IMG/VR virus record: IMGVR_UViG_3300033985_000077
Location: 1-22,806 of that record
Direction: 5' to 3' (one strand)
DNA: 22,806 nt
From: a virus
The notes below the pieces were generated by a model. That model was not told where the DNA came from. It was given only the letters and a program-made list of their open reading frames with translations, and did no database searches. Both the position numbers and the translations under genes were made by a program. How positions within the stretch are numbered: the stretch's first letter is position 1; each line of letters begins with the position of its first letter. Positions 3,992 through 21,619 of this stretch are shown here, one piece after another.

Positions 3992-4014
3992 CACTTTCTC
4001 CGACCCTCTCTTTT

Positions 4015-4180
4015 TTATAAGGGGAAGAAAATTGTAGGGAGAGACAATATGGAGGGGCTACGGCAATCCCTACGTTCTGATTCCCGTTCTTCTTCGTTTC
4101 CCCGTTTATGTAGGTATTGTAGTCCCCGTAGGTATCTATTGAAAATATTGTCCGTCTTGTTTATTTTTCCCGGCTTATAA
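4015..4180 (-). repeat. 166-bp TTATAA-bounded element, copy A
   Basis: This element is bounded by TTATAA at both ends (4015-4020 and 4175-4180), with imperfect inverted ends of the form TTATAAG followed by a G/A-rich run. Positions 4054-4153 are identical over 100 bases to the reverse complement of 20198-20297. The outer parts have diverged. It lies in a gene-free stretch upstream of the leftward structural promoter. Short open frames across it lack ribosome sites and are not called as genes. It could be a MITE-like mobile element, a shared enhancer or operator, an origin, or a structured RNA. Confidence 0.8.
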
Positions 4181-4206
4181 AAAAAGGAATTACAAGTGCC
4201 GGGAGT

Positions 4207-6759: not shown

Positions 6760-6805
6760 GGTGTCTATCTCCTTTATGGGGTTATCTCTCAATCTCGTTA
6801 ACTTT

Positions 6806-6836
6806 GTTATAACACGGGAAACCCATTGTTGTCAAT
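6806..6836 (-). promoter_or_regulatory. Leftward promoter with ATTG-N4-CAAT site over the -35 box
   Basis: On the minus strand TTGACA (6830-6835) and TATAAC (6806-6811) are separated by 18 bases. The -35 box lies in the inverted repeat ATTG-N4-CAAT (6825-6836), and GGGTTTCC fills the spacer. The same arrangement recurs at 7782-7812 and 16349-16379 and in weaker form at 11696-11725, suggesting a shared regulator. It should drive the 211-aa gene. Confidence 0.7.
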
Positions 6837-6872
6837 TATTCCCGTTAATAAGCCCGCACATCGGCATTTGAT

Positions 6873-7737: not shown

Positions 7738-7781
7738 GGTGTTACTCCTTTATGGGGTTATCTCTCAATCTCGTTAACTTT

Positions 7782-7812
7782 GTTATAATATAGGAAGCCC
7801 ATTGTTGTCAAT
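7782..7812 (-). promoter_or_regulatory. Leftward promoter with ATTG-N4-CAAT site, second copy
   Basis: TTGACA (7806-7811) and TATAAC (7782-7787) are 18 bases apart on the minus strand, with the same ATTG-N4-CAAT repeat (7801-7812) over the -35 box. The region from here to the start of the 73-aa gene is a near copy of 6760-6836, so promoter and leader were probably duplicated together. Confidence 0.7.
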
Positions 7813-8237
7813 TATTCAAGTAAAATTTGGTTTAACCTCGTTGTCCATTGATCTTTGGTCAGGCCCCGGCTGGTCAGAATATGACAGGCCCCTGGGCCGT
7901 CAACTGGAATACCAATCTTCAAGGCCCGACCTTGGTGATGCCGGTACAAGAATTCATCACCCCCAAACAAAACAAGAATATAAACCTTTCCAGCCAAGTC
8001 CCCCCGGGTTTTTAGCCAGTTGGCTTGGACTGGTGTCATGGTCGGGGTGCATAACCTATCACCCTTTACGTGTCCAATTTTTAATTCTATCCAACCATGA
8101 CCAGACGGGCAGGAATAGGACAAATCCGGGATACCCCCGCTGGTGGTCCCGGATTCGATTCTGTTGTACAATATGTTTTCCATGGCGTCCAGAGCCGGTT
8201 TGACTCTGGTACGCCAATATCTGGTTTCGGGCTTCAT
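7812..8237 (-). CDS. VRR-NUC-type nuclease
   Basis: This 141-aa protein has the PD-(D/E)xK nuclease core of the VRR-NUC family: SGGIPDLSY with D38, then GWIELKIG with E51 and K53. The TPTMTPVQANWLKTRG segment near 64-79 holds the Gln and aromatic residues typical of the next helix. Stand-alone VRR-NUC proteins are phage structure-specific DNA nucleases, probably used on branched replication or recombination intermediates. The start overlaps the datZ stop by four bases (ATGA), so it is the last member of the coupled purZ string. The family call is firm; the substrate is inferred. Confidence 0.85.
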   Translation of the reverse strand: MKPETRYWRTRVKPALDAMENILYNRIESGTTSGGIPDLSYSCPSGHGWIELKIGHVKGDRLCTPTMTPVQANWLKTRGDLAGKVYILVLFGGDEFLYRHHQGRALKIGIPVDGPGACHILTSRGLTKDQWTTRLNQILLE

Positions 8238-8788
8238 GGCATCAGGTTGTCGATGTATGTTTGTTCACCATGGATATATTCAAGCAAGCAGGAATAACTC
8301 CTGTTCCAATCATACTCCGGCAAAGCATGAGACAGTTGGGCGATGAAGGTGGACATATTATTGCTCAGTTTTTCTCGGATTACTTTTGACTGATCATTGA
8401 TGCCCTCCTCGTGCAGGAATTTTACGGCATCGATATAATCAGCCAACTTGACCACGGCACTAGCTAATGCGGATAGGCCCGATGCGAATGACCACCTGCC
8501 CGGATCAATTCTGGCTTCAAGCTCGTCGAATTTGTCCCTTGCAATATTCTTTATTTGGGATACCGGGTCACCCATAACCACCTCAGGCAAATCGTGTACC
8601 AGAGCCCATAGGATGGCTTCATGGGTTTCCTTCTCGGGGATACCGATTCTCTCGCACAAATCCAAGACCAGCATGCACACCAAATACGAATGCTCGGCCA
8701 CGGTTTGTTGTCTTGGGGTGTTAAGAATGTGCCAACGCTTGACGAATTGGGTCCGGTATATGTCGGATAACTTCAAAGATGTGATCAT
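8234..8788 (-). CDS. datZ: HD-domain dATP triphosphohydrolase, DatZ-type
   Basis: This 184-aa protein is in the YfbR/DatZ branch of the HD superfamily. Metal and catalytic residues visible are H20 in KRWH, H33 in AEHSY, H65-D66 in LVHDLPEV with E69, and D117 in VKLADYID. DatZ hydrolyses dATP to deoxyadenosine and triphosphate, emptying the pool of the base that Z replaces. YfbR itself is a 5'-deoxynucleotidase of the same fold, so sequence alone does not settle the substrate. The presence of PurZ and MazZ in the same overlapping string makes DatZ the best call. The start overlaps the methyltransferase stop (ATGA). Confidence 0.85.
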   Translation of the reverse strand: MITSLKLSDIYRTQFVKRWHILNTPRQQTVAEHSYLVCMLVLDLCERIGIPEKETHEAILWALVHDLPEVVMGDPVSQIKNIARDKFDELEARIDPGRWSFASGLSALASAVVKLADYIDAVKFLHEEGINDQSKVIREKLSNNMSTFIAQLSHALPEYDWNRSYSCLLEYIHGEQTYIDNLMP

Positions 8789-9501
8789 ATCTGGCTCCGA
8801 TGCATAAAAATTGATTCACAAGTTCCATCTTTTGGCTTCCCCGCATAGTGTCCAACCACGGTGTTGCCAAAGTTAAAAACCCTAACCCAATCATCCGGGG
8901 CATCGAACTCGGTTAAAAATACCTGGTTACCCTCGGCCACCAACCCCCTGGCGTATTCCCAGAAAGTTTGATGGTCGAAACTCACACCATAAGCATTTGT
9001 TCTCCCGTTATACGGGGGGTCGAGGTATATTGTGGCCCCGATTGGTTTTACATCCAAATAATCACAACAAACTAACTTAAATTTTGATTTTAGCAGCATG
9101 CTCGCTTTTAGCAGCGTGCTTCTTTTGGCGATAATGGCAAAATTGCAGCCGGTACTATTCCTAGCATAACCCCCCCACCACTTGCCCCCAAAGGACATAC
9201 CAAATCCGCAATACGCCGTCATTGGGTCTTCCGGGTTGCGGGTGTTTTTATAGTACTGGTATGTTTCTTCTGTTATAACATCAGGCGGAACCCACCCCCC
9301 AATGACGGCTCTCCACATGTTAATCAAGGGCTCGTTCAAATCGCTTAGTTGGATAAAACCTTTGAGATGAGGCACAATCCTTGAAGCCACCCCCATAGCC
9401 CCGCAGAAGGGTTCATAATATGGTGTTTCCGGGTCAACCCTTTTCAATATGAAATCGGCTATTTTTGGCCCCTGCCGATATTTACCGCCCATATAATTCA
9501 T
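8785..9501 (-). CDS. D12-class N6-adenine DNA methyltransferase (Dam-like)
   Basis: This 238-aa protein begins MNYMGGKYRQGPKIADFIL and shows the AdoMet-binding motif I YYEPFCGAMGVAS at residues 28-40, then the catalytic DPPY at 161-164 (IYLDPPYNGRTN). Motif order FxGxxG before DPPY is that of the alpha (D12, Dam-like) class, which methylates the exocyclic N6 of adenine. The region between the motifs, rich in Gly/Trp/Tyr (CGFGMSFGGKWWGGYARN), would hold target recognition. It overlaps mazZ and datZ by four bases each. In a genome where A is replaced by Z, its substrate is unclear: N6 is also present on 2-aminoadenine. It may act on Z, on residual A, or on host DNA. Confidence 0.9.
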   Translation of the reverse strand: MNYMGGKYRQGPKIADFILKRVDPETPYYEPFCGAMGVASRIVPHLKGFIQLSDLNEPLINMWRAVIGGWVPPDVITEETYQYYKNTRNPEDPMTAYCGFGMSFGGKWWGGYARNSTGCNFAIIAKRSTLLKASMLLKSKFKLVCCDYLDVKPIGATIYLDPPYNGRTNAYGVSFDHQTFWEYARGLVAEGNQVFLTEFDAPDDWVRVFNFGNTVVGHYAGKPKDGTCESIFMHRSQI

Positions 9502-10238
9502 TCTGGTTCCTCCGTTTCACCCTGGTATTGCGATTTGACATGTTGAAACAGGCCGGAAATCGGGTTTTTCCTCCACCGTCTGGTTTTGTTTATAGCCATC
9601 TTTTCGGTGACTGCCTTTTCCGCATCAACCCCAACCAAATAAGCCAAGTCAAGCACCAAAATCAAAATGTCCGCGTATTCCATGGGGTCATGCACACCGC
9701 CATTAACAAGTTCGGGGATCTCCTCAAACACTAATTTGTTGAATGTTCCTTGGTATGTCCGATCTGGGAAAGTTTTGTTTGCCCAATCGGTGATGTCTTT
9801 TTGGATTTCCGCAATCGTACTGCCTTCTTGTACACGAGGTTCAACTTGGCGCAACAGACCCGGCATATCCAATCCCGCCTGAGGATTCGGCTCGGGTAGA
9901 ATTTGTCCACACTCTTCATTTCTTTGCACACCCGGCATCTCTTTTCTATCATCAAAACCCCCTCCATTTATTTCAAAGTGTCTGAGGACTATAAGTCCCC
10001 AAGTCGCATGGGAAAGATGGGGAAGACCCGATTCCGGGTCAAGATCCTCCCCTTCAAACCATGCCATCATATGTCTGTATACGGCGTCCAAAAGTCTGGA
10101 ATAGGCAAAGCCTTTTTTCCAATTTCCTTTGCCATATTTTTTGGCCCCAAACATAAAAACTTGGGCCAGATCCTTCAATGGTCCAGATGGTATCATAGTG
10201 ATACTAGGCTTGCCGGTGTCGGCCTTCTTCGCTTTCAT
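9498..10238 (-). CDS. mazZ: Two-domain dATP/dGTP diphosphohydrolase, MazZ-type
   Basis: This 246-aa protein has two parts. Residues 1-95 (KPSITMIPSGPLKDLAQVFM, GAKKYGKGNWKKGF, SGLPHLSHATWGLIVLRHFE) match the N-terminal domain of phage dATP/dGTP diphosphohydrolases (DUF5664). Residues 142-225 are a MazG-like all-alpha domain (DUF550) with FEEIPELV (E172, E173, E176) and PMEYADILILVLD (E187, D190) as the metal-binding EExxE...ExxD set. In Z phages MazZ hydrolyses dGTP to dGMP, the substrate of PurZ. A Pro/Gly-rich linker joins the parts. It overlaps purZ by four bases. The C-terminal assignment is strong; the nucleotide choice is inferred from context. Confidence 0.85.
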   Translation of the reverse strand: MKAKKADTGKPSITMIPSGPLKDLAQVFMFGAKKYGKGNWKKGFAYSRLLDAVYRHMMAWFEGEDLDPESGLPHLSHATWGLIVLRHFEINGGGFDDRKEMPGVQRNEECGQILPEPNPQAGLDMPGLLRQVEPRVQEGSTIAEIQKDITDWANKTFPDRTYQGTFNKLVFEEIPELVNGGVHDPMEYADILILVLDLAYLVGVDAEKAVTEKMAINKTRRWRKNPISGLFQHVKSQYQGETEEPE

Positions 10239-11317
10239 ATTCTTGACCCCATACTCCGTACATCATCGATACTCGGACCCCACGCCATGTACTTCACTTG
10301 GGAATACGGTCCAATATATCTTTCAGCCATCGAATTGATCCTCCTCGCCAACTGGTAGGCCGCATCAATAGGCAGGTAATCACAAAAGCTCAAAAAGATT
10401 TCATCCGGGGCACATACCTGCATAGCCTGTATGGTTTGTTCCTTGGAAAAGGTGAAAACCCGCCTTTTCAGTTTGGTCACGGTGGTTATTTCTGGTGTCT
10501 TACCCAAGTTTTCCCATGAAATCTCTTTCTGATCGGGGTAACAGGGCCCAGACCAACCTATCATTTCCCCCTTTTCGTTGTACCGGTTGGCCACCCTGAT
10601 GGGAAATGTCCGCATGACACCCACCACTTTTGCCACCCGTTGAAATGGCACCAAACAATCCGACAGGATCTGGGCGGGGGTGCACTCCCGGGATGTGCAG
10701 TACGGATAGAACCCGGAGTTTACCCCCAGGCTGAAACCCTGTGCCCCCTCAATCTGGATCATGTCAGCTTTGTTGACCATCGACGCCCAATCTTTGGTGT
10801 CGACAATGTGAACATCCTTGACAAGGCCTTCGCCCAGGAGTGTACTGTAAATGGTCCCTGCGTTTACCCCGGCAGTGATCTTGTTGTTGGTGGACCTGCG
10901 GAGCTTTTCGATGAGAGCGGCCCCGGAACCCTTCTTGGTCGACCCGATACCCGTCATGGTTGCTTCTTCTTCGTCCCGGTGGTCCTGTCTCACGATAGCG
11001 GCGTTTTCGTGGATGAAAATCACCTTGTCGTGCATGATATCCCGGCACTCCTTCAGTTCCTTGACCAGAGTGTCCAGATTGAGCACGGAGCCAGGAGCGA
11101 TAGCCACAGCGCGGAGCGCGGGGCTTACAATACCATTTGCCAGTGCGCAGTGAATGAATTTCCGGCCATTGGTGTCAATAAAAGTGTGCCCTGCATTGGG
11201 GCTCCAAGCGGTGATGCACAAATCCGGTTCGTGTTTCATGGCCAAGTACCCAGCCGCTGAGCCCTTACCGGTGGAGCCGAACTGAAGATCACAAATCACA
11301 TAGGCATTCTTTCTCAT
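10235..11317 (-). CDS. purZ: PurZ, succino-2-amino-2'-deoxyadenylate synthase
   Basis: This 360-aa enzyme is an adenylosuccinate synthetase homologue that joins dGMP and aspartate on the way to dZMP. The P-loop region reads CDLQFGSTGKGS (residues 9-20). In cellular PurA this is QWGDEGKGK, so the catalytic Asp is Ser here, the replacement that marks PurZ. Other conserved parts remain: SPNAGHTFID (His of NAGHT), TMTGIGSTKKGSG, EGAQGFSLG, TRECTPAQ. It is shorter than bacterial PurA (about 430 aa), as PurZ enzymes are. The ATG at 11317 follows GAGGAG; an in-frame ATG five codons upstream lacks a ribosome site. It heads the purZ-mazZ-methylase-datZ-nuclease string joined by ATGA overlaps. Confidence 0.93.
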   Translation of the reverse strand: MRKNAYVICDLQFGSTGKGSAAGYLAMKHEPDLCITAWSPNAGHTFIDTNGRKFIHCALANGIVSPALRAVAIAPGSVLNLDTLVKELKECRDIMHDKVIFIHENAAIVRQDHRDEEEATMTGIGSTKKGSGAALIEKLRRSTNNKITAGVNAGTIYSTLLGEGLVKDVHIVDTKDWASMVNKADMIQIEGAQGFSLGVNSGFYPYCTSRECTPAQILSDCLVPFQRVAKVVGVMRTFPIRVANRYNEKGEMIGWSGPCYPDQKEISWENLGKTPEITTVTKLKRRVFTFSKEQTIQAMQVCAPDEIFLSFCDYLPIDAAYQLARRINSMAERYIGPYSQVKYMAWGPSIDDVRSMGSRI

Positions 11318-11335
11318 AAAATTGCTCCTCATGTT

Positions 11336-11587
11336 TCAGAAAGGGAGATCATCCATTTCATCGTTGGCGTTGTATTTTGTTTTTTCTGCCTTTTCTTCTA
11401 TTGGGGTGACGGATAACTGCAGGTATTTTTCCCCGTCATTACGCTTGTATGCGGTCCACCCGGATAGCCAATATTCCTTACCCTCAATATTGATTTTGCC
11501 AGTCATGTCTGGGTGCCTGTCCGTGTTCTTCCGGTTGTTCCGGAAGAGGACGCCTCTGTTGCGATCGTCAAATTCTTTTGCTGCCAT
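11336..11587 (-). CDS. Small single-stranded-DNA-binding-like protein
   Basis: This 83-aa protein (MAAKEFDDRNRGVLFRNNRK) has a run of beta-type segments, TGKINIEGKEYWLSGWTAYK then EKYLQLSVTPIEE, of the size of a minimal OB fold. It ends in the acidic tip NDEMDDLPF, very like the DDDIPF tail that bacterial SSBs use to recruit partner proteins. Similar small proteins accompany phage replication genes. It lies between the polymerase/zinc-ribbon genes and purZ. The ATG at 11587 has AGAGG upstream. The tail motif is clear; SSB function is inferred. Confidence 0.6.
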   Translation of the reverse strand: MAAKEFDDRNRGVLFRNNRKNTDRHPDMTGKINIEGKEYWLSGWTAYKRNDGEKYLQLSVTPIEEKAEKTKYNANDEMDDLPF

Positions 11588-11588
11588 G

Positions 11589-11687
11589 TTAACCTCTTTC
11601 TTCGGTATGTCTACACTGTTCATTCTGACACACCCATGTGCCGGGTGCCACCTCTGCCATTTCTTCTTCACAACTCGGACAATTCAT
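11589..11687 (-). CDS. 32-aa zinc-ribbon protein
   Basis: A very short frame reads MNCPSCEEEMAEVAPGTWVC then QNEQCRHTEERG. Its four cysteines form CPxC and CxxxxC pairs typical of a minimal zinc ribbon. The ATG overlaps the polymerase stop codon (ATGA), a strong GAGGAGGG site precedes it, and its stop is immediately followed by the SSB-like start. These three features together argue that it is translated. It could bind nucleic acid or a replication protein. It is easily missed by length cut-offs. Confidence 0.7.
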   Translation of the reverse strand: MNCPSCEEEMAEVAPGTWVCQNEQCRHTEERG

Positions 11688-13615
11688 GTGCCCTCCTCAT
11701 AACATACGACACCCATTGATGTCAAGTAATCTTTGGAATGTGACCAACCCTTACCCGTTATTTTTTCGGCTTGTGTGGCCTCCCACCAATTTTTACCGGG
11801 TATAGAAAAATCAATCCTAAGTGGGATCCTTAATTCGGGTCGGTCCTCGATAAGATATTTGATTCTTTCCAAGTGTTTTTTTGCATTGTCACAAGACAGA
11901 CTGATTGAATATTCATCGTGAATCGAAAGCAGCAGCCGACCCCCGCTCTCCGCCTCCAAGTATTCACATATCCGGCAGATGTTTTCTTTGTTGAGATCCG
12001 CACTTGAACCCTGATATATCAAACCAGATGCCTTGTGTGTGAATTTCCCACCGGGAAAGCGAATATGCCGACCTTTCAAGGTGCGAACATAACCCCGGGA
12101 CTTAGCCACGGCGGAAGCGTTTTTTGCCATCTCCTTGACACCAGGAACAGCATCATAGTACTTGGCCATGACAGCGAGGGTTTCCTCCCCCGGCTTCAAA
12201 ATCTCCCGCTCTTCAGTGTCGTCCTTAAATTTGACTTTTTCGATGGTAAAGGGGAGGCCCATCTTTTCAGCTAATCTCCCTCCGCCCATATTAAATACCA
12301 TGGCAAGGTTGATTTGCTTGGCGTTCGCCTGTCCGGATCTGGTGGCGTTCCGGGGCAAGCCGGTCATATCTGCCACAACCTGGTGAATGTCGAGATCAGG
12401 ATTTTCCCGATAAGCTTGATTCAGGGAAGGTGCATTGACATAATGTGCAAAGATACGGAATTCATGCTGGTCTAGGTCCCCGTACGCCCAACCCTGGCCA
12501 TCATCAGGTAAAAATATCGGACGCACCAGCGAGGCGATCTCCTTATCCCTGCTGGGTATTTGCTGGAGAGCCGGATTGGAATATGAAAGCCTTCCCGTAC
12601 CAGTGCCCTCAACCCCGCCGCTGCTTTCGGACTTGGTTTGGTTGATGTTGGGGTGTACCCTACCATTGTGGGTGTGTTCAATCACGTGCTTGGCCAGAAA
12701 TGTGTCCCGGGTCTTCATGTACTTGCGGCATCTTAAGATTAACTTGGCCGCAGGATGTGTCATAGCCAGAAGCTGGTCTGCTCCTATGGATGGTTGATCT
12801 CCACTGGTGGCCGGGAGAGGTGTACCGTCACATGCTATCCATACACCATCTTTATTCTTCTTCGGGTTGAACAGTTTTTTGATTGACCCAGATGGGTTTG
12901 GGTTCACATGAAACCCGGCCACCTTATCCAATTCTTTCTGGATTTGGTCAATCTTGACAGTCAATTTATCTATGGTTTTGTGGGCCAAATCCACATCAAC
13001 TCTTATACCACGCCTTTCCATGTCAAAAATAAAAGGAAAAAGCCTCATCTCAAGGGCGTGAACCTGTTGTAGACACTGCCTTTTTATTTCCTTTTGCTGC
13101 CACATCCACAATTCCATGGCAACCCTGCTGTCCATCTTGGCGTATTCTTCAACCACGCTTTTTGGTGCCCTGCTGATATTTTTCATCTGGGCGGTACGTG
13201 TTGGTTGCCCACCAAATAATCCGGCCAACTTTTCATATATGGTTGAATCTTTTCGTTTACCGATATATTTTTGGGCCAGTGAATCAAGATCGTATTTGAA
13301 CAAATGTTCATCAATCAAAGCGGCATTGATCATAGTGCACTCAACCCGCCGGGGGTCAATCACAATGCCCTCATTTAGGAGCATGTGCATATCAAATTTG
13401 ACATTGTGATTGACAACCTTGTTTATTTTGGGGGCTTGGTCCCTGAGCCATGCAAAAAGGCCCTCATCCACCCGGCTGTCGAAATAATAATCCCGGATCT
13501 CACCCCCATCAAAGGTAGACACTGCAACACCAAAAACCTTGTCTCTGTACCACTCCACACCTGTGGTTTCTACGTCTATTGAAACCACTTCATATCTGTC
13601 TAGATTCGGGTACAT
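11684..13615 (-). CDS. Family A DNA polymerase with 3'-5' exonuclease, DpoZ candidate
   Basis: This 643-aa polymerase is Klenow-like, with no 5'-3' exonuclease domain. Exonuclease motifs are SIDVETTG (D14, E16), NHNVKFDMHML and YAKMDSRVA. Polymerase motif A is YGDLDQHEFRIFAHY, motif B spans RSGQANAKQINLAMVFNMGG, and motif C is LSIHDEYSI. In the O helix the usual NFGxxYG is changed to NLAMVFN, so the Phe, Tyr and Gly positions that shape the nucleotide site are Leu, Phe and Asn. Known Z phages of the phiVC8 type use a family A polymerase (DpoZ) that prefers dZTP; the neighbouring purZ cluster makes that likely here. ATG at 13615 has GAGGTG upstream; a GTG two codons earlier is possible. Confidence 0.9.
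   Translation of the reverse strand: MYPNLDRYEVVSIDVETTGVEWYRDKVFGVAVSTFDGGEIRDYYFDSRVDEGLFAWLRDQAPKINKVVNHNVKFDMHMLLNEGIVIDPRRVECTMINAALIDEHLFKYDLDSLAQKYIGKRKDSTIYEKLAGLFGGQPTRTAQMKNISRAPKSVVEEYAKMDSRVAMELWMWQQKEIKRQCLQQVHALEMRLFPFIFDMERRGIRVDVDLAHKTIDKLTVKIDQIQKELDKVAGFHVNPNPSGSIKKLFNPKKNKDGVWIACDGTPLPATSGDQPSIGADQLLAMTHPAAKLILRCRKYMKTRDTFLAKHVIEHTHNGRVHPNINQTKSESSGGVEGTGTGRLSYSNPALQQIPSRDKEIASLVRPIFLPDDGQGWAYGDLDQHEFRIFAHYVNAPSLNQAYRENPDLDIHQVVADMTGLPRNATRSGQANAKQINLAMVFNMGGGRLAEKMGLPFTIEKVKFKDDTEEREILKPGEETLAVMAKYYDAVPGVKEMAKNASAVAKSRGYVRTLKGRHIRFPGGKFTHKASGLIYQGSSADLNKENICRICEYLEAESGGRLLLSIHDEYSISLSCDNAKKHLERIKYLIEDRPELRIPLRIDFSIPGKNWWEATQAEKITGKGWSHSKDYLTSMGVVCYEEGT
11696..11725 (-). 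promoter_or_regulatory. Possible internal promoter before the zinc ribbon, ssb and purZ string
   Basis: TTGACA (11720-11725) and TATGAG (11696-11701) are 18 bases apart on the minus strand, inside the last codons of the polymerase gene. The -35 is followed by TCAATGGG, matching the promoter family at 6806, 7782 and 16349 (TTG-N4-CAA is kept). The -10 is weak, and a start here would fall almost at the zinc-ribbon ATG, so it would chiefly serve ssb and the purZ string. Confidence 0.4.
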
Positions 13616-13617
13616 AT

Positions 13618-15045
13618 TCACCTCAACATGGGGAGAGGGTTATCATCAAAGACAATATCCAGGGTATGTTTAGCCCGGGTCACGCCAACATAGAAAACCC
13701 GGATTTCCCCATCCGGGTTGTTGTGTAAGGCCTCGGCACTCCGGGCATTCATGGCATTTATCAGGATAACCCTTTCAGCTTCCCGGCCCTTACTACCATG
13801 AATCGATGACAGGTGAATTGTGGGTCTGACATTCAGACCATACCGGGTTTCAACCTCAGCCAAGTAATTGATATCAGCATACCTACCCACGGCGATATCT
13901 GTCCAGTGTTTTTTGTTTAAGAATGAAAAATCATCAGCATCGATTTCCCGGGACTGCCCCGGAAACACTCTTTTCATGGCCCTGCGCTCGGCCTCTGTTG
14001 CCATGCTGCAGTGCATTGCGTTGAAATTCTTCCCACAGGCCACCAAAGCTTTTACGGCCCTGGCCAGATAAGATTGCATCACCCCAGGTTTTCCGGAGTC
14101 AGTGATGTATGGTGTGTTCGACTCAATCAATTTTTGCTCGATGTCATTCCTCAAAGAATGGTTACGGTACAAAATCAAGACGTCCTCACCGTGCGTGATC
14201 GGGTTTAGATTCCACACTGTGTCAAATTTCCGGACCCGTCCGCTTTCCGTTCTTGGTTTGTATATCTTTTCCTGTCGTTTGGATATTTGGTTTATGAGAT
14301 CGGTTGCCAGTGTATGTACGCTGGCTGGGATTCTATACGACTGATCCAAGATTTTGATTCCAGAGGCATACCTTTCAGCGAATTTGTTCATACCGGCGGG
14401 GTCGGCACCCCCAAACACATATATGGACTGGTCATCATCTCCAGCCACAAACACTCTTTTCATATTTGCTGCCCAAGATTCGACCAACTTCCACTGCAGG
14501 GGTGATAAATCTTGGGCCTCATCAATAAAGAGGTTTTCATAATTAATCGTGGTCCCGTATGCCAACTCCAACATATCTGTGAAGTCCACCAGACCGTAGG
14601 CCTTCTTAAATTCTTCATACTTCTGAACAAAAAATCTGAATTCTTCCGGGGATCCGTCCCGGACGGTATGATCATAGGTTTCGCCAAGTTCGCTGCGCAG
14701 TTTGTTTCTATGCATTGAATACAAAGCTAGATAAAAATCGCCAATCTGGGGTAATTCACCTTCTTCCGGATTTGAGCCCGTAATTTCAAACCCGGTCAAA
14801 CTGGCGAACTTCTTGAAATCGTCGCGACCGATGACCTGGTCCTTTGTAATCCCGGCACTCCGGAAGGCCAGGCTGTGGATGGTGGAAATATCAAAATCCA
14901 TACCCTTGCATCTGGAGGTCATTTCCGCCGCTGCCGCCCGGGTGAATGACACAAAACAAGATTTGCCCTTGGTGCTTTTCATAATATCGATCAAGGTGGT
15001 TGATTTGCCACAGCCGGGAGGCCCAAATATTACGGTGCTTTCCAT
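13618..15045 (-). CDS. UvrD/Rep-type superfamily 1 DNA helicase
   Basis: This 475-aa protein is a short UvrD-like helicase. Motif I is GPPGCGKST (residues 8-16), motif II is FIDEAQDLSP, motif III is VAGDDDQSIYVFGG, motif V includes LSSIHGSKGREAERVIL and motif VI is VFYVGVTRAKHTLD. It should unwind DNA 3'-5' during replication or repair. Cellular UvrD/Rep proteins are about 670-720 aa; the inserted 1B/2B domains look shortened here. AGAGG lies upstream of the ATG, after a perfect hairpin in the intergenic gap. Its stop lies just before the polymerase ATG, placing the two in one transcript. Confidence 0.9.
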   Translation of the reverse strand: MESTVIFGPPGCGKSTTLIDIMKSTKGKSCFVSFTRAAAAEMTSRCKGMDFDISTIHSLAFRSAGITKDQVIGRDDFKKFASLTGFEITGSNPEEGELPQIGDFYLALYSMHRNKLRSELGETYDHTVRDGSPEEFRFFVQKYEEFKKAYGLVDFTDMLELAYGTTINYENLFIDEAQDLSPLQWKLVESWAANMKRVFVAGDDDQSIYVFGGADPAGMNKFAERYASGIKILDQSYRIPASVHTLATDLINQISKRQEKIYKPRTESGRVRKFDTVWNLNPITHGEDVLILYRNHSLRNDIEQKLIESNTPYITDSGKPGVMQSYLARAVKALVACGKNFNAMHCSMATEAERRAMKRVFPGQSREIDADDFSFLNKKHWTDIAVGRYADINYLAEVETRYGLNVRPTIHLSSIHGSKGREAERVILINAMNARSAEALHNNPDGEIRVFYVGVTRAKHTLDIVFDDNPLPMLR

Positions 15046-15090: not shown

Positions 15091-15822
15091 TTAGAATTCC
15101 GGGCCTTCTTCGGTGTCGGTGTCCATGCCGTCATAACTGCGGTCGGCAGTCGCCGCGCCGGCCATAATAAGTTTATACACTCCCTCGGCCTTCCTGTATG
15201 TGGGTTCATCCACATACCCCAGATTTATAACCTTAAAAGTGTAAAACTCCTGGCCATTCTTGTTTTCGGTCAGCACACCGGTCAGCTTGTACCGGCGGGA
15301 GAATCTGTCGCCGCCATTGATACGGACCAAAGAATTGAAAATCTTGGATACCTTGAGTTTCGATTTAGCCATCGAGATGACCGCTTCCCCCCATGTGTTT
15401 TCTTCCTTGACCAAGCAGAAATGCTGATGGGTCAACACGGCCTCCCACTCTTCCGGCTTTTCCAGGGTGGCCCTGACTTCCTCAGCTTCTTCCATGGACG
15501 GGAAAGCGCCACCGAATCCGCCGCCGAGCTTCTGATCCCGCCATAGAATGTACTCCCGCTTGAATACCACCGGCACAATCTCAATGCTGGTGCCGTAATT
15601 TTTGCGGGTGACGGAATTGTACAGCATACCCTCTTCGATCCCTTCGATATATTCGGGGGCATTTTTCTTGCGGACCTTGGACAGGCTCTGCACAATCTCG
15701 ATGCGGGGGATGATGAGATCTTCATGCGCTACATCCTCGGAACCCCGGTTGCCTTTCATGTTCCGCAGGAATTCGGGGACGTTGGTGTTGACTTCCATAA
15801 TTTTGTCTTCTTTCTTACTCAT
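15091..15822 (-). CDS. Unknown replication-block protein with acidic tail (243 aa)
   Basis: I do not recognise a named family with certainty. The protein has an N-terminal lead (MSKKEDKIMEVNTNVPEFLR), a central part with HEDLIIPRIEIVQSLSKVRK and GMLYNSVTRKNYGTSIEIVP, a Gly-rich loop (LGGGFGGAFPSMEEAEEVRA), and an OB-like beta region (RRYKLTGVLTENKNGQEFYT). It ends in an acidic tip with a final Phe (DTDTEEGPEF). Acidic tails ending in Phe are seen on phage and bacterial ssDNA-binding proteins such as T7 gp2.5, so a second SSB is a reasonable guess. AAGGAG precedes the ATG. It lies between a 157-aa unknown and the UvrD-type helicase. Confidence 0.7.
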   Translation of the reverse strand: MSKKEDKIMEVNTNVPEFLRNMKGNRGSEDVAHEDLIIPRIEIVQSLSKVRKKNAPEYIEGIEEGMLYNSVTRKNYGTSIEIVPVVFKREYILWRDQKLGGGFGGAFPSMEEAEEVRATLEKPEEWEAVLTHQHFCLVKEENTWGEAVISMAKSKLKVSKIFNSLVRINGGDRFSRRYKLTGVLTENKNGQEFYTFKVINLGYVDEPTYRKAEGVYKLIMAGAATADRSYDGMDTDTEEGPEF

Positions 15823-16798: not shown

Positions 16799-18559
16799 TT
16801 AGACCATATCCATCACCATGTCCCGGAAAGACGAGGCCTTCGAGGGGATGTCGGACAATCTCTCCTTCACATATGTTGCCAGATCCTTCTTTTCTTTCAA
16901 GGCGGCAAGCACCAACTCTTCAACAGAATCCTTCATAATAACATCCGTGTATGTCACTTTCTGGGTGGTCCCCTTGCGGTGGTTCCGGTCTTCGCTCTGC
17001 GCCCGGTTCCCAAAACTGAAACTGTTGCTGAGGTATATTACATCGGAGCAGTTAGTGAAGGTGAAACCCGTCCCGCCAGCCTCTTGTGTTGACACCATAC
17101 ACCTACTTTGCTTTGATGTGAACAGTTCCAGGGCCTGTGTCCTTTCTCTCTGGTTCATACCACCAAAAATCTTGACGGCACTAATATTTGCTGCTTTAAG
17201 ATTGTCATATGTGGCATGCAACTCTAACAAGTGCCGGGTCCATATATTAAATTGTTTTTTGCCATATTCTGATATCATATCCATCAAGAAAATTTGTTTC
17301 GGATCTTTTGTTGGGTCCGTGATCCGGGTGAAGACCCGATTTTTCTTTTCACCATGGGATATGAAACCAGAGCAAACCTGCTGCAAGGCCAAGTATACTG
17401 CCAATATATTTTCGAGTACGATGGTTGTGGGTCCGCCAACCGCCAACACTTCCGCCAGCCTTTCCTTTTTTAGGCTGTCGTATATTTTCCGCTGTTCTTT
17501 TGTCATGTCCAACCGCACCGGATCCATATACACTTTCGGCGGCAGATCCATCATTTCTTCTTTGGATATCTGAATTGTCCACGGGGAAATGGAGGCTGTC
17601 AGTTCCTCGATATTATCATACCCAATTACCTCTTTGTTTTTATACCCACCCCTGATTGTGTACCGGTTTTTGAATGAGTAATAGTCCCCGATACCTATGA
17701 TGTCCGGGTCCAAGAATTCGTATTGGGAATAGAGGTCAAGAATGGAATTCAATATCATGGTGCCGGTGCCAATATACCGGTATTCAGCCAGTCGCCCCAA
17801 GCTGATCACATTTTTGGTTCTGTTGCTTTCTGGGTTTTTTATCAGATGGGATTCATCCACCACCATGGCGCATCTGTTGGCACTCAAAAACTTCACAAGC
17901 CATTCGAACAGGTGCCCTCCCCCCAGCCTTTGGCTGAGAGACTCGATACCCACAGCCACGAATCTCATATTGCCCGACTTCTTAATCAAAGTGTAGGCCT
18001 TCTTTCTTTTGGCCTCCGTGCTGAGATCCGGCTTGAATACGTCATAAACCTCAAGGGGGGTGTGCTTCCTCACCTCATTTTGGATGTTATCACACAAAGA
18101 AACCTTTGTCATGATCACCATGGCATCTATAATACCCTGCTGAAACATGGCCGACCCAAGATCGGTATATATTTTTGATTTTCCGGTGCCCATCTCCATC
18201 GAGAAGCAAAAAACCTTTTTACCCCAGGCCATATTAAGGGCCTCCATCTGCTTCTGCATTGGCGGCATACCCGGACGAAAAGAATATGACAGGGGGAAGG
18301 GTGTGATTTTTACTTCACTTTTCTTCTGGATGTTTTTTATTAGAGCCTTGGCCTTGTCATCAATAATCATCCTCCCGGCCTGGCTCTCAATATACTCAGC
18401 GTTCATCCTAAACCCGCGCAGGAACCATGCTTTTTTGGATTTCATGAATCTCCGGCTCGGTGCTTTTTGGGCTAAACCATTCAGATGAAAAGGTACGTAA
18501 AGAAGAAAGTTTTCTCCCTTATCATCCGTTGTGACCATTGCTTTAGAATTCGGGTTCAA
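16799..18559 (-). CDS. SNF2-type superfamily 2 helicase
   Basis: This protein of about 586 aa has SNF2-like helicase motifs: motif I MEMGTGKS, motif II VVDESHLIKN (DESH box), motif III YIGTGTMILN, motif V QEAGGTGFTFTNCSDVIYLS and motif VI NRAQSEDRNHRKG. Phage SNF2 proteins are ATP-driven DNA translocases linked to replication or recombination. The start is uncertain. TTG at 18559 has the best ribosome site (GGGGGAG, four bases away). ATG at 18538, just after the primase stop, has none, and TTG at 18589 is a third choice. With the chosen start it overlaps the primase-polymerase gene by 17 bases, suggesting coupling. Confidence 0.9.
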   Translation of the reverse strand: MNPNSKAMVTTDDKGENFLLYVPFHLNGLAQKAPSRRFMKSKKAWFLRGFRMNAEYIESQAGRMIIDDKAKALIKNIQKKSEVKITPFPLSYSFRPGMPPMQKQMEALNMAWGKKVFCFSMEMGTGKSKIYTDLGSAMFQQGIIDAMVIMTKVSLCDNIQNEVRKHTPLEVYDVFKPDLSTEAKRKKAYTLIKKSGNMRFVAVGIESLSQRLGGGHLFEWLVKFLSANRCAMVVDESHLIKNPESNRTKNVISLGRLAEYRYIGTGTMILNSILDLYSQYEFLDPDIIGIGDYYSFKNRYTIRGGYKNKEVIGYDNIEELTASISPWTIQISKEEMMDLPPKVYMDPVRLDMTKEQRKIYDSLKKERLAEVLAVGGPTTIVLENILAVYLALQQVCSGFISHGEKKNRVFTRITDPTKDPKQIFLMDMISEYGKKQFNIWTRHLLELHATYDNLKAANISAVKIFGGMNQRERTQALELFTSKQSRCMVSTQEAGGTGFTFTNCSDVIYLSNSFSFGNRAQSEDRNHRKGTTQKVTYTDVIMKDSVEELVLAALKEKKDLATYVKERLSDIPSKASSFRDMVMDMV

Positions 18560-20096
18560 TTTTCTCCCCCTCCATTTTTGGTTGTTCAATCCTGTCCATC
18601 TCTACCGCCCACACATCCCTGACCACTGACCCGATACGTAAAGAAGTGTGCGTCACCTCGTGCCGCCTGAGTGCAAACCAAAGATTTGGCCCCCGCAATT
18701 CCTCAGCCCGATTTTTCCTCAAATAACTCACAAAATCAGACCCACGGAAATATATCAACTTCTTTCCATTCTTAAGCTGTACCACCGGGATACCACGCAA
18801 CAGCATTTTTCTGTCTTCGGTACTCTCGCCGGTCGATGTCATGTCGGCACGTTGCAGGAATGTTCGCAGGTGGGACCAAATCAGGCCGTGGCTGGAGGCA
18901 TCATCCGGGGCATCAACTAATACTGCTTCATTCATCAAGGTTTGCAGAATGGCCAACCATTTGTCCGCCTTCATGGGGGGAATTATCCGGGTCAATTTCT
19001 CTGCCACTGCCTCCCTGACCTTTTTGTAGTCCATAATATCTTGGGTGGTCAGATTCAATTCAAAGCCACCGTCCATTTCGAGCCCCCACCTGACTGGATC
19101 TGTCAAATACTTCTTCAACCCGGTGAATTTTGGGTGCTCACCCAGATTCATTGTGGTGTGTTCTTCTTTGGTGATACCAAACTTTCTATTAACACAAACA
19201 GAAGAATTACACAGGGATCTGCAAGGTTCCTCCCCGCATTTGTATCTATACGTTCTTCTTCCTACTGAAGTTATTGTCTTTTTTGCTTCACTGTACGGCA
19301 GAGGTGTGCTAAATATCTTGGCGTTCAAATCAAAAGCCTTGTCTTTCCATGTTTCCGGGTAGGCCTGTTTCAAATATATGCAAATATTGTACAGAGCTTC
19401 GTTCCTATACCCGGATGCCACACCATTCGATATCATCGCGCATATGCACGGCGGGGCTCCGTCATGGTTCCCCTCGCTCTTCTCGACCAGAACTTGGGCT
19501 GTGACCCGTCTGGACTCAGCAATCTCGACAAAGTATTCTATTGATATTCTCTTCCCACCCTCAACACACCACCTCAAAGCTCCCTCTGAGTATGCATCAA
19601 AATTACATATGTTGATCCAGTTCCCAAGTTGCTGACCTTCCTTGTCCTTGAGCAACTTATCCTGCTTGGGGAATACCTCCGCCCCGGTGAAGTACAATTC
19701 GCTGGCCCACTTCGCCAACACTTTCCTGACCAGCCTGGCGGGCACGGCCTCAGAACAAAACAAATATAAATGAGCCCCGCCGGATTTTGACCTACAAACC
19801 ATGAGAGGCAGATCCTTTGATCTTACTTCCTTTTCAAGTTCGTATAGGTCAATTTCCTTGGCATCCCCATGACAATCGATATCTATGGCACCCCACCAAC
19901 ATGTGTCATCATCGAGTATTGGTACAAGCCCGATTCCCCTCTTGCCGGAAATGTGATCCTCAAAATCCGTTTTTTCATATTTCGAGTGAAGGGTGTACAT
20001 ATTTTTGCCCGGGGTTTTTTGCCTGGGGTCAAACACACCCTTGCTCCTCTCATTGGAGATAAACAAATTCATAAACCTATCAACTATATCGGCCAT
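18543..20096 (-). CDS. Primase-polymerase (archaeo-eukaryotic primase type)
   Basis: This 517-aa protein has the AEP/PrimPol catalytic set: GAIDIDCHGD with D72 and D74, CRSKSGGAHLYLF with S103 and H109, and GAEVFPKQ with E140. A helical middle follows (GVASGYRNEALYNICIYLKQ, a PriCT-like region). A Cys cluster at C287, C292, C296 and C301 (CGEEPCRSLC, SSVC) probably holds zinc. The C-terminal 200 residues have no clear helicase motif. It would prime or start DNA synthesis. Z phage S-2L also encodes a PrimPol, whereas phiVC8-type phages carry DpoZ; here both a PrimPol and a family A polymerase are present. GAGGAGG precedes the ATG. It is the first leftward gene of the block. Confidence 0.88.
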   Translation of the reverse strand: MADIVDRFMNLFISNERSKGVFDPRQKTPGKNMYTLHSKYEKTDFEDHISGKRGIGLVPILDDDTCWWGAIDIDCHGDAKEIDLYELEKEVRSKDLPLMVCRSKSGGAHLYLFCSEAVPARLVRKVLAKWASELYFTGAEVFPKQDKLLKDKEGQQLGNWINICNFDAYSEGALRWCVEGGKRISIEYFVEIAESRRVTAQVLVEKSEGNHDGAPPCICAMISNGVASGYRNEALYNICIYLKQAYPETWKDKAFDLNAKIFSTPLPYSEAKKTITSVGRRTYRYKCGEEPCRSLCNSSVCVNRKFGITKEEHTTMNLGEHPKFTGLKKYLTDPVRWGLEMDGGFELNLTTQDIMDYKKVREAVAEKLTRIIPPMKADKWLAILQTLMNEAVLVDAPDDASSHGLIWSHLRTFLQRADMTSTGESTEDRKMLLRGIPVVQLKNGKKLIYFRGSDFVSYLRKNRAEELRGPNLWFALRRHEVTHTSLRIGSVVRDVWAVEMDRIEQPKMEGEKIEPEF

Positions 20097-20151: not shown

Positions 20152-20170
20152 CTAGTGTTGTTCCTTCTTT

Positions 20171-20336
20171 TTATAAGAGGGAGAAGTTGTCCACGGTGGA
20201 CAATATTTTCAATAGATACCTACGGGGACTACAATACCTACATAAACGGGGAAACGAAGAAGAACGGGAATCAGAACGTAGGGATTGCCGTAGCCCCCAC
20301 ACACTGTCTCCCCCTACAATCTCTCCCCTCTTATAA
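20171..20336 (+). repeat. 166-bp TTATAA-bounded element, copy B
   Basis: This is the inverted partner of 4015-4180, of the same 166-bp length with TTATAA at both ends. Positions 20198-20297 are identical to the reverse complement of 4054-4153. A perfect 17-bp palindrome (20187-20203, TTGTCCAC-G-GTGGACAA) lies in its left part and is absent from copy A. It fills most of the 318-base gene-free region between the diverging primase and exonuclease genes. The rightward promoter begins 24 bases beyond it, matching the position of copy A relative to the leftward structural promoter. Confidence 0.8.
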
Positions 20337-20359
20337 AAAAGAAGCAGGATAAATTCCCA

Positions 20360-20388
20360 TTGACCTGTGTATCGGAGTGTGGTATGGT
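20360..20388 (+). promoter_or_regulatory. Rightward sigma70-type promoter for the exonuclease-thyX operon
   Basis: TTGACC (20360-20365) and TATGGT (20383-20388) are 17 bases apart, each matching the consensus at most positions. The exonuclease GTG start lies 27 bases further on, behind GGAGG. This is the only plus-strand promoter seen. Confidence 0.6.
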
Positions 20389-20414
20389 ATTCTCATACAT
20401 TATATGGAGGCAAC

Positions 20415-21008
20415 GTGAAAATTCTTTTCTTTGACACGGAAACAACAGGCCTTGATTTTGAAAGGTCGGCAATTATTCAATTTGGTGCCATTCTAGATGA
20501 TTTCAAGCTCAAACTGACTACAAAACTAAACATCAAAATAAAACCCCACGAAGATGCCTTGATTGAAGACACTGCTCTGGAGGTAAACAAAACATCCAGA
20601 GAAGATTTGTTGTCTCCGGATAGGGTTGATCACAAAGCCGCATACAAGGAAATCATAGATATGTGTGGTTTCCCCCGCCGGGTGCACCCGATTAACAGAG
20701 TTTTCTTGTGCGGCTATAACATACTCAGTTTTGATATTCCAATGTTCTATAAGATGGCCCACCGTAGCGGGGACCAATACCCCCATGGGAAATTCCACTG
20801 GCCCGGCATAGATATAGCACCTCTCGCTGCTTTTTACTTGGGCAAGAAAAGAATGGATCTCCCGAATTTCAAACTCATGACAGTAGCGGAGGCTTTAGGT
20901 ATCAAAATTGATCCAAATGAGGCCCATGATGCTTTATACGATGTTGAAATTACTCGGAAGATGTATTATAAACTTTGTAAGTATATGGGTTGTGGTGTGC
21001 ACATATGA
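20415..21008 (+). CDS. DnaQ-like 3'-5' exonuclease
   Basis: This 197-aa protein has the DEDDh exonuclease motifs: ILFFDTETTGLDF near the start (D7, E9), GYNILSFDIPMF in the middle (third acidic residue), and EAHDALYDVEIT near the end (His and last Asp). Stand-alone phage proteins of this type proofread, trim or recycle DNA ends. The start is GTG at 20415, with GGAGG five bases upstream; the frame reaches back to 20367, but that part overlaps the promoter. It ends in a four-base ATGA overlap with thyX. As the family A polymerase already has its own exonuclease domain, this enzyme may have another job. Confidence 0.88.
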   Translation: MKILFFDTETTGLDFERSAIIQFGAILDDFKLKLTTKLNIKIKPHEDALIEDTALEVNKTSREDLLSPDRVDHKAAYKEIIDMCGFPRRVHPINRVFLCGYNILSFDIPMFYKMAHRSGDQYPHGKFHWPGIDIAPLAAFYLGKKRMDLPNFKLMTVAEALGIKIDPNEAHDALYDVEITRKMYYKLCKYMGCGVHI

Positions 21009-21619
21009 AAATAATCAAACCTAAAGTCTTACCAGAATTTTTGCCAGATTATTTTGTTCTGACCACGTTGATAGAACGTGCCGCCCGGACTTGTTACAAA
21101 TCGGAAGGTAAAATCAAACCAGGATCGGCTGAAGAATTGATAAAGTCTTGTATTCGAAGGGGTCATGGGTCTGTACTTGAACACGGGTCAATCACATTAA
21201 GATTTATCACAGACAGGGGTGTTACCCACGAAATCGTCAGACATCGTGTTGGGGTGGCTTATAGTCAAGAGAGTACCCGTTATTGCGATTATAAAGATGG
21301 GGAAATCAATTTCATAGAGCCTTGGTGGTATGAAGAAGGCACCAACACTCAAAGAAAAGGTTTTGATTCTATGTGTCACTCTGCTGAGGCAGAATACAAA
21401 CACATGAGACATAGCCTCGGTTTATCACCCCAAGCAGCACGGGCGGCACTTCCCTGTGCCGTAAAAACAGAAATTGTTATGACTGCTAACATCCGGGAAT
21501 GGAGACATATACTTAGGTTGAGATGTGATCCTGCTGCACACCCGGATATGGTCCGTATCATGAACATGGCCAAACATATATTACAAACTAAATACCCAAT
21601 CTTTTTTGAGGATCTGTGA
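21005..21619 (+). CDS. thyX: Flavin-dependent thymidylate synthase ThyX
   Basis: This 204-aa protein makes dTMP from dUMP using methylene-tetrahydrofolate and FAD/NADPH. The ThyX motif is RHRVGVAYSQESTRY (residues 79-93), matching the usual RHR-x7-S-x-RY region. Upstream RRGHGSVLEHGSITLRF (51-67) is the folate/FAD-contacting segment, with HGSVLEH well conserved. Downstream, AARAALPCAVKTEIVMTANI and REWRHILRLRCDPAAHPDM are the typical C-terminal substrate regions. The start is the ATG overlapping the exonuclease stop. In a Z phage it would keep dTTP available to pair with Z. Confidence 0.95.
   Translation: MKIIKPKVLPEFLPDYFVLTTLIERAARTCYKSEGKIKPGSAEELIKSCIRRGHGSVLEHGSITLRFITDRGVTHEIVRHRVGVAYSQESTRYCDYKDGEINFIEPWWYEEGTNTQRKGFDSMCHSAEAEYKHMRHSLGLSPQAARAALPCAVKTEIVMTANIREWRHILRLRCDPAAHPDMVRIMNMAKHILQTKYPIFFEDL

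Follow-up and report, generated by a model that had tools for sequence, protein, structure and literature searches.

The biochemistry by which phages replace adenine (A) with 2-aminoadenine (Z) in their DNA is established for Acinetobacter phage SH-Ab 15497, cyanophage S-2L and phage phiVC8. SH-Ab 15497, whose DNA is known to contain Z, has relatives in Klebsiella phage VLCpiS6a, Pseudomonas phage PSA28, Salmonella phage PMBT28 and Providencia phage Kokobel2, and its MazZ is a DUF5664-DUF550 fusion that hydrolyses both dGTP and dATP (PMC12884076). We analysed the whole length of IMG/VR record IMGVR_UViG_3300033985_000077, a stretch of phage DNA of 22,806 nucleotides (nt; hereafter, the window), in which a purZ-type set of Z genes encloses a gene for a D12-class amino-methyltransferase. 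All published components of the purZ-type Z pathway are present with almost all of their specificity residues kept, and the methylase is the part that known Z biology leaves unexplained. At a probability of roughly 88%, we favor the explanation that the locus is a Z module with an embedded D12 enzyme that may methylate Z.

As the earlier note on this DNA had claimed, the Z genes lie together on one strand, the minus strand: dpoZ, encoding a family A DNA polymerase with a 3'-5' exonuclease (11684-13615); a gene for a single-stranded DNA-binding protein (SSB; 11336-11671), whose real start may be further in; purZ, for succino-2-amino-deoxyadenylate synthase (10235-11317); mazZ, for a dGTP/dATP pyrophosphohydrolase (9498-10238); the D12 methylase gene, with a DPPY motif (8785-9501); datZ, for an HD-domain dATP triphosphohydrolase (8234-8788); and a VRR-NUC-like nuclease gene at the end of the overlapping string (7812-8237). 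The four-base joins that the note described from purZ through mazZ, the methylase gene and datZ to the VRR-NUC gene all read exactly ATGA (10235-10238, 9498-9501, 8785-8788 and 8234-8237). Its description of one overlapping string holds for these five genes but not for the polymerase gene, which belongs to the same string without overlapping it; 12 bases separate the polymerase and SSB genes, and 18 bases separate the SSB gene from purZ. The SSB gene was assigned by its match to phrog_7364 and by collinearity with the SSB gene of SH-Ab 15497-like phages. The VRR-NUC gene has phrog_2165 as its sole match, with none in Pfam, and shares 32-36% identity with its collinear counterpart in SH-Ab 15497, VLCpiS6a, PSA28 and Kokobel2. 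The reading frames of the Z genes are all intact, and their order is not a matter of chance, as it recurs in cultured phages and in IMG/VR contigs.

Family models and individual residues both identify these proteins as Z enzymes. PurZ scores 369.5 bits against the NCBI model NF038379 (cut-off 300) versus 98 bits against the purA model (cut-off 395), and also matches PF00709; the polymerase scores 883 bits against NF038380 (DpoZ_1; cut-off 500) versus 28.8 bits against DpoZ_2; and the HD protein matches phrog_7076, dATP triphosphohydrolase. The MazZ-like protein combines PF18909 (DUF5664, residues 3-98) with PF04447 (DUF550, residues 147-237), so that the MazZ-type diphosphohydrolase proposed earlier stands by domain and residues, amended to a fusion of the two. 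We considered this fusion as a novelty and rejected it, since the architecture is on record for SH-Ab 15497 (PMC12884076). The residues mapped onto the window proteins were those named in structural papers (PMC8342488; PMC8065100; PMC8599892). PurZ, whose nearest solved structures are those of phiVC8 PurZ (6FM1) and S-2L PurZ (7ODX), carries Ser at the place of the PurA catalytic Asp13 and keeps the dGMP pocket and the TTVT loop, with Q308 to D as the sole change. DatZ keeps the S-2L residues R19, W20, I22, H34, H66, D67, E70, D75, K81, K116 and D119, including all metal and phosphate ligands and the specificity residues W20 and I22; its sole change is P79 to Q. In MazZ, E35, E38, E50, D53, I56, D60, K76, N80, R83 and W85 are kept (among them the metal ligands and the guanine-binding I56 and D60), while N20 is replaced by F, a change shared with most relatives that have the fused form. 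DpoZ keeps L455, F459, G548 and R440 of phiVC8, F459 being the one residue common to both DpoZ clades.

The string would serve a Z-DNA phage as its module for replication and the nucleotide pool, with steps that we infer from homologues of measured activity and from the kept active-site residues. MazZ would convert dGTP, and dATP as well if it acts like its SH-Ab 15497 homologue, to monophosphates; PurZ would join dGMP to aspartate, after which host enzymes would complete the triphosphate of Z (dZTP); DatZ would destroy dATP; and DpoZ would place Z opposite T. Replacement of A by Z is strongly expected because the biochemistry of SH-Ab 15497, S-2L and phiVC8 is established, and the earlier prediction of it is borne out by the PurZ and DpoZ models, the residues, the gene order and the PurZ tree. 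We consider it very probable, judging by sequence, that this phage builds Z-DNA with Z in place of A.

The earlier note had likened the components to those of S-2L and phiVC8-like phages; the components are indeed there, but among cultured phages SH-Ab 15497 and its relatives come nearest. This group shares with the window the order SF2 (superfamily 2) helicase, UvrD helicase, DpoZ, SSB, PurZ, DUF5664-DUF550 protein, DatZ and VRR-NUC, and its PurZ and DpoZ are 50-53% and 56-60% identical to those of the window (59% for the SH-Ab 15497 polymerase), whereas mazZ and datZ are just 30-39% identical. No D12 methylase is found in the group (PMBT28 was not searched), in contrast to the gene between mazZ and datZ in the window. 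S-2L has purZ, mazZ and datZ in the order of the window and shares the specificity residues, but it has PrimPol instead of DpoZ, its MazZ has a single domain, and it lacks a D12 methylase. phiVC8 uses the same pathway (purZ, datZ and dpoZ) and shares the DpoZ signature residues, but it has MazZ-2 instead of MazZ-1, a different gene order and, again, no D12 methylase. By sequence identity, the window PurZ is closest to SH-Ab 15497, VLCpiS6a, PSA28 and Kokobel2 (50-53%), followed by phiVC8, S-2L and others (41-45%). In a PurZ tree of 41 rows, the window pairs with IMG/VR contig 3300035542_000028 (L011), its closest relative (support 100/100), within the SH-Ab 15497 group (99/98), while E. coli PurA, the sole cellular PurA included, lies on a long branch away from it; the comparison of PurZ with PurA that the note had proposed as a check thus places the window protein with PurZ. 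The Z kit of the window is a new, diverged member of an already known group. A PurZ search of viral contigs gave no match with a single-sequence query and gave matches with alignment queries. Two PurZ-like proteins with a GSTGKG motif (L167 and L168), approximately 32% identical to the window PurZ, are encoded beside housekeeping-like genes in contigs of Proteobacteria metagenome-assembled genomes, one of them 994 kb long, and are possibly cellular relatives of PurZ.

The D12 protein, which the note had listed without interpreting it, has a PF02086 domain, a DPPY motif and a Dam-type fold. Its AlphaFold2 model (predicted local distance difference test score 88.9, predicted template modelling score 0.87) has T4Dam and E. 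coli Dam as its best PDB matches, with which it shares fold, domain and motif, but it belongs to a separate, PurZ-linked clade. Beside the catalytic motif, this clade has changes at C160, Y170, S197 and Y199 (window numbering), residues that scarcely vary across the other phage D12 enzymes. L011 carries its own D12 gene in the same place, between mazZ and datZ, with the same ATGA-type overlap onto datZ. Between the window and L011 the methylase is 65-67% identical, compared with 64-65% for DpoZ, 61% for PurZ, 43-44% for DatZ and 41% for MazZ, and it is the best-conserved gene among those compared. Its nonsynonymous divergence (dN 0.27) is the lowest among six genes, with synonymous divergence (dS) saturated; because of this low dN together with the high identity, we read the methylase as being under strong purifying selection. 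The L011 MazZ (9070-9546) is a protein of 158 amino acids (aa) with a DUF550 domain alone, as opposed to the fusion in the window. No recognition site can be proposed for the enzyme because no palindromic tetramer shows a strong deficit in counts from the window or L011. Strong depletion does occur in Z phages that have no D12 gene, with GATC observed 10 times versus 85 expected in VLCpiS6a and CCGG 0 times versus 45 expected in SH-Ab 15497; neither depletion is seen in the window or L011.

To survey methylases in Z-type phages, 135 whole records fetched by PurZ or DpoZ similarity were searched, at least one of which duplicates a cultured phage (phiVC8). PF02086 was found in L011, L025 and L036. 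The L025 gene lies 646 bases past datZ (10530-11657) and encodes 375 aa with a C-terminal extension; that extension resembles a small phrog_6802 protein whose gene lies close to the Z cluster in several more Z-type contigs. In L036 the D12 gene lies between dpoZ and purZ, and a second methyltransferase-like gene (8761-9285; phrog_799, NPPY) adjoins the VRR-NUC gene near the same cluster. An amino-methylase of a different family, PF01555, was found in one of 100 records (L021), between purZ and mazZ. All four amino-methylases from these whole-record searches lie in or beside the Z cluster. In the reverse direction, searching IMG/VR with the methylase returned, in addition to the cases already known, L172 (51% identity), L173 (53%), L186 (41%) and L237 (a broken gene), all of which carry PurZ-type synthetases. 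These synthetases score 163-243 bits, under the PurZ cut-off of 300, and have Ser at the Asp13 place (GSEGKG or GSEAKG), like the PurZ0-type protein of Arthrobacter phage Litotes; by sequence they may be PurZ0 or another diverged type. In L186 (6915-8555), the methylase is truncated, its N-terminal part being gone, with a transposase gene directly upstream; the contig also carries PurZ-, DatZ- and DpoZ-like genes. A second scan gave L263 as the sole new homologue at 40% identity or more, in a record with a truncated PurZ-type synthetase (GSEGKG, 119 bits). Among the records with a more distant D12 that were checked alongside L263, one of 413 kb has a weak match (21.6 bits). L172, L173, L186 and L263 were thus found through D12 similarity alone, and each record has a synthetase with Ser at the Asp13 place.

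The distribution of these genes was then compared on D12 and PurZ trees. In a D12 tree of 47 proteins, from which the broken L237 gene was excluded, the seven PurZ-linked proteins and L174 form one clade (100/99), and none of the other 39 proteins is PurZ-linked. The PurZ-link label requires two changes on this tree versus 6.7 when shuffled, with none of 500 shuffles as low, and the chance that the three members not chosen via PurZ (L172, L173 and L186) would all fall in the clade is approximately 3e-4. When L263 is added it joins the clade (100/98), so that a PurZ-type synthetase is present in the records of eight of the nine members versus 0 of 39 outside. L036 sits on a long branch, and an approximately unbiased test neither rejected nor established the Z-linked rows as an exact clade (p = 0.187), L174 lying among them. 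On the PurZ tree, by comparison, the D12 carriers are scattered, with seven changes (six forced by well supported branches), equal to shuffled labels. Because the methylases form one clade yet their PurZ partners are scattered, the trees suggest that one D12 subfamily was taken up repeatedly by separate Z-type phage lineages, and the simplest reading of this pattern is that the subfamily suits Z-DNA.

The exocyclic N6 amino group, which Dam-type enzymes methylate, is retained in Z. The D12 enzyme would transfer a methyl group onto the N6 amino of Z at a specific short site, giving N6-methyl-2-aminoadenine, which could protect the DNA from nucleases able to cut even Z-DNA, or could label new DNA. 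That the enzyme methylates Z is, in our estimate from sequence, an even bet; its purpose, its target site and its use of Z instead of A as substrate are all things that we infer. The broader proposal, that a distinct D12 subfamily specialised on Z-DNA makes N6-methyl-2-aminoadenine in several unrelated Z-type lineages, we hold tentatively, at just under even odds. In the open-licence literature searched, no report of N6-methyl-2-aminoadenine as a natural base was found, and methylated Z or Z-phage methyltransferases are the subject of one relevant discussion (PMC8342488), whose authors in 2021 expected methylation of Z-DNA to matter little in these phages, and which reports that 6-methyl-2-aminoadenine protects against EcoRI endonuclease. 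Methyltransferases go unmentioned in the main paper on these phages, from 2026.

The strongest competing explanation accepts that the Z kit works and takes the D12 protein for an ordinary orphan adenine methylase, acting on host DNA or residual adenine and placed in the cluster by accident. Phages commonly carry D12 genes, which are mobile (227 phage records are listed), most Z phages lack one, and Dam-type enzymes prefer A (PMC8342488). Random gain, however, would sample the whole D12 family, whereas the Z-linked copies form one clade with unrelated PurZ partners; the gene is held between mazZ and datZ, with its overlap onto datZ, in both the window and L011; and mazZ and datZ have drifted much further between these two contigs than the methylase has. 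We regard an orphan methylase as a real possibility that falls somewhat short of an even chance. The favored explanation, a Z module with a Z-methylating D12 enzyme, has several points against it. The methylase is optional, being present in about 2% of the Z-type records surveyed, and the idea that D12 is a core part of the Z kit was rejected on that count of three in 135. L011, L025 and L036, the three linked rows besides the window, were ascertained by their adjacency to purZ, and the L174 D12 belongs to the clade with no PurZ in its 40 kb record. In vitro, the methylating activity of E. coli Dam and M.EcoRI is at least 10-fold lower on Z than on A (PMC8342488), a barrier that a dedicated D12 subfamily could have overcome. 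Finally, the window is a 22.8 kb fragment, compared with genomes of 43-48 kb in its cultured relatives.

A second alternative takes the enzymes for relics, or for enzymes put to another use, in a phage whose DNA mixes A and Z or in which dZTP is made but A is not fully replaced. In its favor, E. coli given the S-2L genes reached partial replacement only (PMC8342488). Intact frames, kept active-site residues in all four enzymes, and the presence of DatZ and the DpoZ signature residues, which together would remove A, argue against this alternative, which we consider unlikely. That the PurZ-like protein is a host-type PurA boosting the supply of ATP, as its PF00709 match might suggest, is highly improbable given its score far under the purA cut-off, its lack of the catalytic Asp13 of cellular PurA, replaced here by Ser, and its placement in the PurZ tree.

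Further genes extend the resemblance to the replication modules of Z phages. Directly beyond dpoZ in the same string, a UvrD/PcrA-type helicase gene (13618-15045, minus strand; PF00580) is 41-43% identical to collinear Z-phage helicases. The adjacent gene (15091-15822, minus strand), identified by collinear gene comparison, encodes a conserved replication-module protein that stands beside the helicase in Z phages; its product shares 55-57% identity with the collinear counterparts from SH-Ab 15497, VLCpiS6a and PSA28, and the gene is present also in phiVC8, BUCT555 and Bm1. An SF2 helicase of the Z-phage replication module (16799-18589, minus strand) is 35-36% identical to its counterparts in SH-Ab 15497, PSA28 and VLCpiS6a, and an archaeo-eukaryotic-type primase (18543-20096, minus strand; PF22548, phrog_21866) is 51% identical to those of VLCpiS6a and PSA28. 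Genes for a DnaQ-like exonuclease and for a ThyX thymidylate synthase occupy window positions 20367-21619 on the plus strand, opposite to the Z genes. The two copies of a 175-nt inverted repeat (87% matching; 4009-4183 and 20168-20342), 16 kb apart, flank the replication and Z genes, and a direct repeat of 80 nt (91%; 6769-6848 and 7745-7824) lies directly upstream of two minus-strand genes, possibly as a repeated promoter or leader.

The embedded methylase is a specific enzyme and makes for a directly testable prediction, and it could serve as a tool with which to place methyl marks on Z-DNA. That the methylase appears to have been acquired repeatedly and strongly conserved in Z phages argues against the small effect expected in PMC8342488. 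If the favored explanation is true, Z-phage genomes would carry a second, sequence-specific layer of modification atop complete base replacement, which raises the question of whether full replacement of A by Z leaves gaps against some defences, such that these phages would methylate Z as well.

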